Below are positions 9,424 to 59,300 of a stretch of DNA of 64,000 nt, piece by piece (within the stretch, counting starts at the first letter, position 1; every line of letters starts with the position of its first letter). The stretch is taken from positions 54,829-118,828 of the forward strand of contig JAFSTO010000075.1 in NCBI GenBank assembly GCA_017450435.1, written 5' to 3'. Origin of the DNA: Paludibacteraceae bacterium (GTDB lineage: Bacteria; Bacteroidota; Bacteroidia; Bacteroidales; Paludibacteraceae). The notes under the pieces were generated by a model that ran no database searches, had not been told where the DNA came from, and saw only the letters and a list, made by a program, of their open reading frames with translations. Both the position numbers and the translations under genes were made by a program.

Positions 9424-9447
9424 GTATCGCGCATTAATGCGCGATAC
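9424..9447. repeat. REP-like palindrome copy 1
   Basis: A perfect 24-nt palindrome whose half-site is GTATCGCGCATT. It lies 12 nt after the PL1 stop codon. Its core, ATCGCGCATT plus its complement, recurs four more times within 1 kb, three of them inside the transposase gene. Confidence 0.85.
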
Positions 9448-9448
9448 C

Positions 9449-9473
9449 ACGGGCAACCCCTACGGGCAACCCC
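9449..9473. repeat. Tandem ACGGGCAACCCC repeat
   Basis: Two exact copies of ACGGGCAACCCC (9449-9460 and 9462-9473) lie between palindrome copies 1 and 2. Related GGCAA words recur in the glycine-rich linker of the transposase downstream. Confidence 0.6.
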
Positions 9474-9485
9474 AAGCCGAAATGC

Positions 9486-9505
9486 ATCGCGCATTAATGC
9501 GCGAT
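9486..9505. repeat. REP-like palindrome copy 2
   Basis: A perfect 20-nt palindrome, half-site ATCGCGCATT, 67 nt upstream of the transposase start. Same core as copy 1. Confidence 0.85.
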
Positions 9506-9572
9506 AACAACCAACAACCAACTTGTCAACCAAGTCGTCAAACCCAACCTATAATCGAATTTTAGCAAAACA

Positions 9573-10778
9573 ATGGCGAGAAAGCATTATCTGACAGCAG
9601 ACGGACAGTGGAAGAGCGAGTGTAACCCGTATCTGCAACACCGTGCTTCAGGGCATGATTATTCGCAGCCGGGTACGTATATGATAACCCTTTGTACCAA
9701 CCGACGTGAACCGTTGTTTGGCAAGGTGGTAGAGAAATCAGGTGTTGTTGTTTTTGAGCCGTCAGCCGTGGGGCGCATGGTGGAGCGACGTTGGTGCGGC
9801 ATAGGTGAACATTCGCCTGAGATAACCATACAGGATTATCAGCTTATGCCCGATCATTTGCATGGTATCTTGTGGGTGCGCGAGCCGCTCGCTAAGCCGC
9901 TTGGGCAGGTTATCCGCGGTTTTAAGATGGGCGCCACAGCGGCTTATCGCGCATTAATGCGCGATAGCAACGTGGGCAACGTGGGCAATGTTGGCAGAGG
10001 TGGCAAGGGTGGCAATGATGGCAGTGCTGGCTATGATGGCAACAATGGCGGAGTGGAAGCGGTGTGGCAACCGAAGGAGGGCTATGCGAGTCTTGATAAA
10101 GAGCAGAGAGCGGCGGTGGCGGCTGAGTCGTTATGGGAAAACAATTACAACGACCGAATCTCTTTCACTCGTGAGCGGCTGGAGGTGCTTCGCACTTATA
10201 TACACGACAATCCGAGGCGTCTGTGGCTCAAGAGACAAAACTCAGAGTATTTCGCATTAATGCGAAATGTAAGGGTGGAGACGACTGCCGGCAGCATGCT
10301 TTTTTCCGCTATGGGCAATATGGCATTGTTAGAAACTGCTGATAAGCAGGTGGTGCAGTGTTCGCGGAGTATGAGTGGTAACCGCGCATTAATGCGCGAT
10401 GCGTTGTGCCAAGCCATGGAACGAGCGGAAAAGGGAGCACTGATTATCAGTGCCGCTATATCGAAGGGTGAGAAAGAGATTTGTAGGGCAATAAGGGAGG
10501 CGGGTTTTGCCTTGGTTGTCTTGATGAAGGACGGTTTTCCGGCGGCAGATAGTCCGCATAGCAGATACTATAAACCCGGTGGATTATATTTCGAAGCGTG
10601 TAGCAAAGGTCAGCTTCTTCTTTTGGAGCCGGAAAGAGACACCTTTCTGCTTCCTGACATACGTTTAGAAGTGGAGCGTAAGGCACCGCTTGCGGCACCG
10701 AATAGCAGTCGATATAGGTTTCTTGCATTGAATAGCATGGCGTGGAGGATAGCTGAGTTTTGCAGGGTGTGTCAATAA
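9573..10778 (+). CDS. REP-associated tyrosine transposase (Y1/HUH) fused to a DprA/SLOG-like domain
   Basis: The N-terminal half (about 20-220) is an IS200/Y1-type single-strand DNA transposase of the RAYT group. The metal-binding HLH motif is at 95-97 (LMPDHLHGIL), and the likely catalytic Tyr192 is in SLWENNYNDRIS, followed by LRTYIHDNPRRLW. A glycine/asparagine-rich linker (about 133-160) is inserted between these motifs. The C-terminal half (about 245-370) reads like a DprA/LOG Rossmann fold: a CSRSMSGN loop, GALIISAAISKGEKEI, ALVVLMKDGF, and QLLLLEP. That assignment is inference from the pattern. Three palindromes lie in frame inside the gene and encode ALMR peptides at about 125-132, 226-232 and 270-277. 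Two more lie just upstream. No flanking terminal repeats of a full insertion sequence were found. It interrupts the pectin locus. Confidence 0.85.
   Translation: MARKHYLTADGQWKSECNPYLQHRASGHDYSQPGTYMITLCTNRREPLFGKVVEKSGVVVFEPSAVGRMVERRWCGIGEHSPEITIQDYQLMPDHLHGILWVREPLAKPLGQVIRGFKMGATAAYRALMRDSNVGNVGNVGRGGKGGNDGSAGYDGNNGGVEAVWQPKEGYASLDKEQRAAVAAESLWENNYNDRISFTRERLEVLRTYIHDNPRRLWLKRQNSEYFALMRNVRVETTAGSMLFSAMGNMALLETADKQVVQCSRSMSGNRALMRDALCQAMERAEKGALIISAAISKGEKEICRAIREAGFALVVLMKDGFPAADSPHSRYYKPGGLYFEACSKGQLLLLEPERDTFLLPDIRLEVERKAPLAAPNSSRYRFLALNSMAWRIAEFCRVCQ
9945..9966. repeat. REP-like palindrome copy 3, inside the transposase gene
   Basis: A perfect 22-nt palindrome, half-site TATCGCGCATT, in frame, encoding YRALMRD at residues 125-131, between the HUH motif and the glycine-rich linker. 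Confidence 0.85.
9968..10050 (+). repeat. Degenerate GGCAA-type short repeat coding a Gly/Asn linker
   Basis: Repeated words such as GTGGGCAAC, GGTGGCAAG and GATGGCAAC encode a low-complexity Gly/Asn/Asp stretch at residues about 133-160. It probably arose by slippage next to the palindrome and separates the HUH motif from the catalytic tyrosine. Confidence 0.6.
10249..10268. repeat. REP-like palindrome copy 4 with compensated changes
   Basis: A perfect 20-nt palindrome with half-site ATTTCGCATT. Compared with the other copies, positions 3-4 are TT instead of CG and the matching positions of the other arm are AA instead of CG, so pairing is kept. It encodes ALMRN at the junction between the transposase and the SLOG-like domain. 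Confidence 0.85.
10383..10398. repeat. REP-like palindrome copy 5
   Basis: A perfect 16-nt palindrome, half-site CGCGCATT, in frame, encoding RALMR within the first part of the SLOG-like domain (residues about 271-275). Confidence 0.8.
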
Positions 10779-56300: not shown

Positions 56301-59300
56301 GGCCGTTGGAATAGAAATGCAGCGGGACTGGAGATAAACAAAGACGGTTCGCGTTATCGCGACGTGATTGTCCACACGAAGACGTATCACTCAGGAGACA
56401 CACTAACGCGAACGGTACTCAAAGCAGCGAAAGAGAGATATAGTTTTGGTCCATTAGCAGGACAGACTCAACAAATCAACTTCCTGCTCACGCGTGAGAC
56501 GTACCACCAGATGCTGGATAAGGATGGTAATCCGGAAGGCGAAAACATACTGTCCGTCGATACACTGACTTCCGGATGGAAGATGAAGGCTACGGGGTGC
56601 GGTTTTGCCAAGGGTAAAGATACCTACTACAAAGTGGCAAGTGCTGTAGGAAGTCTGGTCACCTTGAATGTCGAGAAAGAGAACACATCCGGCATTAACT
56701 ACGACACGCTTGTTATCTCCACCATTTTTGTGAACGAAGTAGACAGCGTTTTGACAGTGCCCGTACGTGTGCCTTTGGTGCAAGCTGCATTGGAGGGCGA
56801 CGAACTGATCTGGTCGGCTGTATATAACAAGCAGCGGTACTACATCATGGCAGGTTCAGACGGACTGATTGCCCGCAAATACAACCTGAAGGACAATACG
56901 CTCTACAAGGAGGGAACGACAACCCACCTGATCAAAGGCATGAAGAATGATGCGAATAGTGACAAGCAGTATATCACTCCGTGGCAGTATGATTATCACC
57001 CTATAGCGGAAAAGCAGACGGATACGCTGATGCTGAAAACCAAGCTGCCGGGCGGTACAACCAAATACTTCTGCATCACAGGCGAAGGATCAAGCGCAAG
57101 AGGAGTATTGGGCGCCACGCCATCGCTGTTGATATACAAGTACGTCAATGTCTATGCGAACGACAACACGAACTTCGAGGAGCAGGTACGCATCCGATAT
57201 GGTGCAGACGGATGGCTGAAGTTGACGGGCGTATCAGGCACCGTGCCGACCATCGAGTTGACGACTACCGAATCCGAAGGCACAGTCTTCTCGTGGGGCT
57301 ATCTGCATGACGAGTACAGTCTGCTCAACAACGGCTCGTACCCCAGCCAAGAGAGCGTAGAGTTCGGCTATAACCGAGTAGCTCCGGCATCCGTGCAGAC
57401 GCTCTATAAAGCCCGGCACGAGTACTCGATGCTGGTGGATAACACGATGACCTACCTCTGCCAGAGAGAACAGACACGTATCGACAGCCTGACTTCCGCC
57501 TCTCGGGAGTGGAAGACACAATACAGGATCGACACGATTCGTGACCATCGCGTGGCAACCCTGAGCGCCTTGAATAACACCACTGTCGATTCCACACTGA
57601 CTACGACCATCACACCCGTCGGTACCAGCCCGATGAATGTGACCTATGGTGGCGAGTACGTGAATATTGTGGATACATTGCGAGTAACCCTCTCGTTGCA
57701 GGATGGTGCTCCTGCCTACCGATTCAAGGACGGATGGAGTAAGTTCACCAAGATCAGCGACGCGAACCTGAAAATCCCTCTGATACGTCGAACCTACCAC
57801 GAGGAGCCTTATAACGGAGTGGAGTGCTCTGTGGAGGGCGATGAGGATATATACACGTTCCCTGCCACGATTGTTGCATCAGGCACCGGCAAGAACGACA
57901 CACATACGTTCACCTTTCACACCACGAACAATACAGGTGCGCAGGTGGTGAACGTATATGGTGAAGTTGCTGCGACCAGAAAGACCTCATCTGTCGATTT
58001 GACCGGCGCGATGAATCTGAAGAACCACTCACTCGCCCAGGTTAGTCTGGCGGACGAAAAGGGTAATATACCTTCGTGGTGCGTACTGAGCGATACGACA
58101 GCAAACACCGTGACGGTCAAGTGTACTGAAAGCGGTATCCGTTCGTCGCGTATCGCCTATCTGTACTTGGCATATATCGTGATGATCGATGCAGTACCGC
58201 ATTTCGTTAACTTCCGCATCACGATATCACAACAGAGTTTGTTCGAGTATGCTAACAACCAGCACCTCGTACACAGCGCCGGTGCGTCGGGCGACGACTT
58301 GCGGCCTGACGGTATGCAGCAGGTGCATGAGAACAGACGCATCCTTTATTACTACCCCGAGCAGGATGTGGAGTTACCTGTTCGCGAACGCGCGTTCTAC
58401 GGCTGGTGGCGCTGGTATCGCGAGGGCAAAGGCGATATAGGCGACTCGGATGTACCGGATTCCCTGTGGCGTGTGTTCCCGCGTAATATCGGTAAATACA
58501 ACTTCCCCTATCGTATCATCGGTGACTCGGTAGATGATGGCGCGGGCGGTAAGAAACTCGTGACGATGGGACGTTACACCGTGTTCCACTATCCGTCGAA
58601 AGACTATGGCAACAAGAACGACCCGCCATCCAAGTCAGCACGTGTAGCTCCGCCGGTCACAACGCTGGGCGCAGAACGCAAAGATACCGTTACGTATGCC
58701 GTCGATATGAGTAACTACTACGACAACCTGCCTATGTCCCTTAAGAATAAGAACAATGTGGATATAGAAATGATGGATACGATGACGGCTATCATCGAGC
58801 CCACGCTATCTATCCGCGAGGTGTTCGAACTGCATCCGTGGACAGAGATGGCTGCTAAGTTGGACGGCTACAAATACACCGATGCAACCAGTAATGGCAG
58901 TGACTCGTACATGAATGCCTACATGGAGGAGCATGAGGTCATGGCTCCTATCGGCAACCGTCTGCTGCTGCGCACCGAACAGCGCTATAACTACGAGAAC
59001 CTCACGAAGCATGGGCACTCGGAGTCGTTGCTGGGTTACTACATGCGTGATGACAACTGGAGTACAAGCGGATGGGATGCAGCTCGTCAAGACTCGATGA
59101 TCTGGTGCGGCGGATGGGATGCGGACTGCCGGTGGTTCAGTTACAACACCATGACAAAGACATATGCTGCATGTACGCACAGCATATCCACCGAAGAGGA
59201 CTTCCTTGTCGTGCCCGCACGAACAAGTATATCCGAAGGACATAAGTTCGATACCATTTATTACTTCCTAAGAGCACGCAGTAAGAGGACAACTACCGTT

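Follow-up and report, generated by a model that had tools for sequence, protein, structure and literature searches.

REP-like hairpins within the reading frames of a RAYT-like gene family, traced from a Paludibacteraceae locus

A 64,000-nucleotide stretch of DNA from a Paludibacteraceae bacterium (contig JAFSTO010000075.1; hereafter the window) contains a gene resembling those of repetitive extragenic palindromic (REP)-associated tyrosine transposases (RAYTs), with REP-like palindromes lying in frame inside the gene. We find that such in-gene hairpins are genuine and occur widely in a RAYT family, and we give a probability of roughly 0.75 to the reading that the locus is a self-contained REPtron with REP sequences inside its own reading frame. 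Five perfect palindromes without a loop, built on GCATTAATGC, span positions 9424-10398 (Table 1), and they are the only zero-loop palindromes of at least 16 bp in the whole window. Their core, CGCATTAATGCG, occurs seven times in the window's own genome, five of these at the RAYT locus. When synonymous codons were shuffled 2000 times across the open reading frame (ORF; 9573-10778), palindromes within the ORF numbered 0.011 on average and 1 at most, against 3 observed. Palindrome 4 differs from copies 1-3 by two stem pairs that are changed on both arms (CG..CG to TT..AA). The coordinates and the codon shuffles thus bear out the initial annotation, which had described two palindromes upstream of the gene and three in frame within it. 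That annotation had also placed the in-gene copies at poorly conserved points, wrongly so for palindrome 4, which lies over F227, a residue invariant across 66 aligned homologues.

Table 1. Palindromes and protein features of the RAYT-like locus, by position in the window
Feature	Position	Strand	Remarks
Upstream palindrome 1	9424..9447	.	24 bp
Upstream palindrome 2	9486..9505	.	20 bp
In-gene palindrome 3	9945..9966	.	22 bp; reads YRALMRDS; linker start, residue ~128
In-gene palindrome 4	10249..10268	.	20 bp; reads YFALMRN across invariant F227
In-gene palindrome 5	10383..10398	.	16 bp; reads RALMRD; within C-terminal domain
RAYT-like gene	9573..10778	+	401 amino acids: HUH/Y1 domain, variable linker, C-terminal domain without known family
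HUH motif DHLH	9852..9863	+	residues 94-97; D94, H95 and H97 invariant in 66 homologues
Presumed catalytic tyrosine Y209, motif YIHDNP	10197..10199	+	invariant in 66 homologues

A genus-wide search returned relatives of the gene (E<=1e-10) in 112 of 178 genomes. We studied 113 genes, comprising that of the window, three paralogues from its own genome, 29 loci and 80 further matches taken in order of E-value with hairpins disregarded. A further genome scan confirmed at least 518 relatives; the best 80 of these, which were the ones returned, come from records titled Bacteroidales, Bacteroidaceae, Prevotella, Prevotellaceae, Paludibacteraceae and the like, many of them from rumen and one titled Ruminococcus. 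Altogether, 193 genes were reduced to 103 non-redundant ones. With hairpins defined by a stem of at least 8 and a loop of at most 4, the stop-to-stop frames of the 113 genes contain 140, against a mean of 10.3 and a maximum of 15 in 30 shuffles, and those of the 103 non-redundant genes contain 125, in 68 of the genes. Because whole stop-to-stop frames may take in leader sequence, we made a second count on the part aligned to the window protein, which gave 99 hairpins in 62 of the 103 genes (codon-shuffle mean 7.9, maximum 14; 20 shuffles). The non-redundant homologues that bear strong hairpins are mostly from rumen Bacteroidales. A chance origin of the hairpins is rejected by their excess over codon shuffles, both in the window ORF and across the family. 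One relative (L115) has an open frame of 540 amino acids with nine hairpins, eight of which belong to two repeated types.

The in-gene hairpins recur at particular places. Among 132 hairpins from 106 full-length proteins mapped onto the residues of the window protein, the variable linker that joins the HUH and tyrosine motifs has 36 at one end (residues 120-149) and 36 at the other (170-189); a further 32 are N-terminal or precede the protein in its open frame, and the remainder are scattered. Hairpins at 229 (5) and 273-277 (4) are confined to the window and its nearest relatives. In the FxRIF clade, place and frame are mostly kept at both linker sites while the stems change yet stay paired. 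At site 178, which we located through a protein motif and not through pairing, 94% of stem pairs form, against 44.7±2.5% expected from codons, and 20/32 stems are perfect. In the linker before site 178, a perfect 8-bp stem is found in 21/31 sequences, 20 of them at site 136, against an expectation of 0.15 that already allows for the choice of the best window. Covariation at the two sites is 0.441 against 0.137 and 0.853 against 0.257 in shuffles (0/500 as high), values that at site 136 lean to pairing, since the window taken there is the best-pairing one of each linker.

All palindrome copies differ in parallel between two lineages. Four near relatives (L019, L020, L021 and L024; L021-type proteins are 52% identical to the window protein) have five palindromes each, one 5' of the gene and four inside it, at residues 26, 128, 229 and 277. 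In every copy the relatives' core, TGCATTAATGCA, has T..A for the C..G of the window core; the copy at 229 has TT..AA instead of CG..CG in both lineages, its left arm encoding F227 and its right arm following. Translated comparison shows that the RAYT gene of genome G101 adjoins a cluster like the one upstream of it in the window, in opposite orientation. Because a like cluster stands beside the gene in both, sequence comparison suggests that the gene has long been resident at one locus. The neighbours of the window locus resemble a SusC/SusD and polysaccharide-lyase set, a label given by inspection. The RAYT genes of G101, G108, G154 and G175 (L157/L158/L159; L019-L021, L024) are ~96-97% identical, whereas stretches of the flanks in G108 and G101 share 80-88% identity; since the gene is more alike than these flanks, it may pass between species or be strongly constrained.

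The HUH motif and single tyrosine of a Y1 core are present in the protein, with D94, H95, H97, Y209 and N213 invariant in the 66 aligned homologues and D212 kept in at least 90% of them; we take DHLH to be the HUH motif from established knowledge of Y1 HUH enzymes. The annotated RAYT-like identity holds, in that the NCBIfam model NF047646 (REP_Tyr_transpos) matches residues 30-126 (E 2.4e-9; 37 bits, under the curated cut-off of 80) and is matched by 66/66 aligned members at E<=0.01. A match to Pfam Y1_Tnp (E 0.023) is likewise under its cut-off. Conserved residues run on to about N387 of 401, so the protein extends past the core domain; its C-terminal 159 amino acids matched no Pfam family, with sub-threshold chance matches in 2/7 fragments, and no PDB sequence. 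Three other relatives in the window's own genome are matched in both halves (the best at 44%, across residues 186-395), and one further match is weak and partial; the genome has no near-identical transposase copies of the kind found with IS200/IS605 insertion sequences. Plasmid and phage sequences gave one partial match each (25% and 18% of the query, respectively). In a defence-system library, the window protein had no match, and the Cas5d model was weakly matched by 10/66 family members (best E 0.0022).

On the REPtron reading, the gene would encode a Y1 HUH single-strand endonuclease of the RAYT/TnpAREP type with an added C-terminal domain, and the palindromes before and within the gene would be the cognate recognition hairpins of that protein. 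In single-stranded DNA, for example on the lagging strand, each palindrome would fold into a hairpin of ~20 nt, to be bound, nicked and rejoined by the protein. Copies would be homogenised between in-gene and flanking sites and would now and then be copied to other loci, which would make the hairpin mobile. With the REP inside the ORF, gene and target would be inherited together and diverge together, and this co-inheritance would be of benefit. The available part of PMC8266576 describes how proteins of E. coli, Stenotrophomonas and Marinomonas recognise and cleave REPs, and that of PMC3116915 describes REPIN excision.

We considered the possibility that the hairpins are instead mRNA elements, those in the gene and the 5' leader governing translation or stability of the RAYT message, perhaps with RAYT bound to them. 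Compensatory stems at recurrent coding places do resemble an RNA constraint, and the upstream copies occupy the position expected of a leader. However, the two FxRIF linker hairpins are alike in opposite orientations and form an inverted pair; both have an ANNA loop and, instead of the 5' GT[AG]G foot of canonical REPs, a tail resembling A(A)RTGCAC on the 3' side, and an inverted pair with like tail is REPIN anatomy; the A..A of the site-136 loop is invariant in 27 sequences. Moreover, copies are found 3' of the stop codon (in L104, a second copy of the linker cassette, read by eye), in upstream arrays in which the in-gene hairpin recurs (L095, L045) and at unrelated loci. Hence, we regard the mRNA explanation as unlikely.

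A second alternative holds that mutation alone keeps the stems perfect, replication template switching correcting quasi-palindromes with no function needed. According to the available part of PMC8794818, template switching can make and mend perfect hairpins with multi-base compensatory changes, and the changes we observed keep length and mostly frame. This leaves unexplained the sequence common to separate copies in gene and flanks: cognate REP-like hairpins flank the family genes on both sides, and a sister hairpin (at least 80% identity) is found in the flanks for 38/122 in-frame hairpins, against 9/366 control segments. It also leaves unexplained the roughly six-fold hairpin density at these genes compared with farther away (1.05/kb in frames, 0.96 in the 600 bp upstream, 1.20 in the 300 bp downstream and 0.17 farther off), and a hairpin type that largely follows the RAYT tree, with 6 changes against a shuffled mean of 20.6 (0/200 shuffles as low). 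Mutation alone is therefore an improbable account; template switching may instead be a mechanical part of the REPtron explanation.

Copies at other loci are few. The sequence CGTGCATTAATGCACG is present in 9/178 genomes, with 24 copies in the four that have an L021-type RAYT gene and 5 in the 174 others. In those four genomes, 14 copies are at the RAYT gene and 10 elsewhere, at 7 distinct sites; the five other genomes have single copies, and four of these are at a site also occupied in one of the L021-type genomes, as judged by alignment for two (in ileS) and by like flanks for the other two. The expectation that the core would also be found away from its gene is thus upheld in the nearest relatives and nearly fails in the window's own genome, which has two copies beyond the locus; these precede an FtsL-like and a SufC-like gene, respectively (labels by inspection). 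Variants of the core stand directly before an FtsL-like gene (again an inspection label) both in the window's own genome (C37:24800) and in G108 (C4:18917), with different upstream neighbours. The paralogues of the window's own genome differ in hairpin type, CAGCCAATATTGGCTG being an example of a type that belongs to one of them. The type of the C9 paralogue occurs six times at its own locus and once at the C52 paralogue, with three stem matches with other loops elsewhere, and that of the C68 paralogue four times at its own locus and in a tandem array on C27. In the array (58158-58406; L285), which lies between two genes, a 39-bp unit bearing the C68 RAYT hairpin (CAGCCAA..TTGGCTG) is repeated about seven times, and 4 of the units match the pattern exactly.

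Several observations count against the REPtron reading. Spread of the window REP type is slight, because its core has only the two outside copies in its own genome and 18 copies, in 16/177, among other genomes. None of the five window palindromes has a canonical 5' GT[AG]G foot (GTAG) in flanks inspected by eye. The last palindrome copy is broken in L020 and L021, two of the four relatives, and four close orthologues show no significant excess of conservation in their palindromes over the remaining sequence (six pairs, P 0.10 to 1). Across the family, 41/103 non-redundant genes have no hairpin at the threshold in the aligned part; on the tree, two of the five hairpin types have a scattered distribution, with 4 and 3 changes, and 49/102 rows had no hairpin type. 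Two of the five covariation measures are not strongly outstanding, with 21 and 105 of 500 shuffles as high for pairs changed on both sides and 18 and 336 of 500 for further pair types. The pairing bias of the site-136 windows is a further such point.

We also considered that a mobile palindrome may insert at random and in frame wherever a loop tolerates it, as in Rickettsia palindromic elements. Linker length is highly variable among the genes, and in-frame REP insertions are described for TnpAREP subclass 2.4 in the available part of Quentin et al. 2018 (PMC6006769). However, the best linker hairpins of the FxRIF clade nearly all share one frame (29/31), and 25 of these 29 lie 31-36 residues past the HUH motif. 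Nor is there a gain in length at several palindrome sites: at residues 226-232 of the RAYT protein the palindrome sits on aligned codons, and at the relatives' N-terminal site the window reads HRASGHD against HRALMHD, ungapped. The same is true of ileS (label by inspection), where 11 rows are of equal length at the site, 5 with the palindrome and 6 without. Insertion of this kind is thus hardly probable, and the earlier suggestion of an element that inserts into its own gene is, in its simple form, unsupported.

The ileS palindrome is exact in G101, G108, G013 and G106 and has one changed centre base in G175; G154, G104, G122, G129, G100 and G000 have other codons there. A further row was truncated, and in G021 and G057 the search matched short repeats but no ileS. 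Palindrome rows read ALMH and palindrome-free rows ALLH in 5/6 and ALLR in G000, so the target was partly alike beforehand. Because the pattern across species does not track overall similarity, recombination between species, repeated gain or loss may account for it. In the alignment of an AddB-like gene (8 rows), the row with the palindrome does not exceed the others in length, and two rows have an extra 18 nt; one relative has RALMHD with two synonymous differences (hand translation), which could be decay or a prior state. Nine genomes were aligned at a radA-like gene: five, including the query, have the hairpin or a near-hairpin, two have other sequence of like length, one lacks the stretch and one has a different gene; a tenth, the window's own, matched only past the site. 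At ileS, the AddB-like gene and the radA-like gene, we found no clean pairs with and without an insert of ~20 nt. Other dispersed repeats occur in the same genes. In the ileS-like gene (L143, 1250-1282), a 33-nt low-complexity repeat of the TATCAACTGTCAACT... type lies in frame in a loop whose peptide varies among relatives, and G100 gave 69 matches to the 801-base ileS-like query, mostly to the TATCAACTGTCAACT-type stretch among the matches listed. The radA-like gene (L147, 1642-1707) has another (GCGAAGCGGTCTGTCA...) in a variable loop; nine of ten genomes gave between 7 and 42 matches each to the 851-base radA-like query, mostly to the GCGAAGCGGTCTGTCA stretch among the matches listed.

A tentative extension of the REPtron reading, about which we are more doubtful than confident, is that the RAYT system spreads its hairpin by overwriting as well, the in-gene copies being a heritable master that renews the others. 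Where a target matches in part, its aligned bases would be replaced, with length unchanged, either by a REP copy in single-stranded form or by template switching onto such a copy. Overwriting would thereby write the recognition hairpin into conserved coding sequence, as it may have done in ileS (TTDALLHV against SQRALMHV), at the RAYT N-terminus (HRASGHD against HRALMHD) and at the F227 site, and RAYT and REP specificity would evolve as a single locus.

That the ALMR peptides are protein-constrained, with the palindrome a by-product of codon choice, is very improbable, and we reject it: in-gene copies of the window's clade do always read R/F-ALM, and the AddB-like relative keeps RALMHD with non-palindromic codons, but the codon shuffles rarely produce the palindromes, non-coding copies share the identical sequence, and other clades have different peptides at the equivalent place (NQPILADY, HQPYMAD, SGGKNAAE and SPELNSG). 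The check on homologues suggested in the initial annotation accordingly came out in its favour, ALMR with varied codons not being universal; because other clades have different hairpins and peptides at the same linker place, it is the hairpin that recurs and not the peptide.

REPs inside RAYT genes are already known, and the present family is a variant of that arrangement. As far as the available text of PMC6006769 goes, REPs in frame inside tnpAREP genes are a unique feature of subclass 2.4, generally between HUH and Y, and some subclass 2.8 members carry an insertion; Y209 is presumed to be the catalytic tyrosine by likeness to the Y motifs tabulated there. Subclass 2.4 is given as having NH[IFV]H, WQ and YIxNNP, a length of 194, no core-domain extension and REPs with a GT[AG]G foot. 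The present family shares with it in-frame hairpins between HUH and Y, and Bacteroidetes are among the 2.4 hosts. Unlike subclass 2.4, it has DHxH, a YIxDNP-like motif and ~400 amino acids with a C-terminal domain, its palindromes or short-loop hairpins of 19-24 nt have no GTAG foot, and in the window's clade in-gene hairpins also occupy the N-terminus, the stretch past the tyrosine and the C-domain. Membership of subclass 2.4 is rejected on the motifs (D94 is invariant and D212 kept in at least 90%, in place of NH[IFV]H and YIxNNP) and on the extension past the core. Subclass 2.6 likewise has Bacteroidetes hosts and atypical hairpins without GT[AG]G, but has NHxH, WQ and 179 amino acids, and the same text does not describe in-gene copies for it. 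Pseudomonas REPIN/RAYT systems and the E. coli REPtron resemble the present system in having a Y1 HUH protein with cognate palindromes close to its gene, inverted pairs and a separate REP type for each RAYT; they differ from it in that here dispersed copies are few and REPs lie within the ORF. Rickettsia palindromic elements and intragenic REPs, as presented in the available part of PMC3733652, are also in-frame palindromes within coding genes, but are insertions in various genes, whereas here the host gene is the RAYT gene itself. Among the papers listed by our literature search, none was seen to report the present family, in-gene REPs that covary, or overwriting by REPs, with possible overlap with Figure S10 of Quentin 2018; those listed on gene conversion and on Rickettsia palindromic elements came no closer than the papers cited here. 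Judged from sequence, the present family stands apart through its additional C-terminal domain, sites that stay fixed while their stems change in a compensatory way, two hairpins forming an inverted pair in the gene, and signs of overwriting without change of length.

How REPs spread and why RAYTs are retained are open questions in the field. A target within coding sequence makes the co-evolution of an HUH enzyme and its DNA hairpin directly readable, and the family offers dozens of natural enzyme-hairpin pairs, including paralogues of different hairpin type in the same genome. The ileS case provides a testable alternative to insertion for the origin of REPs at new places.
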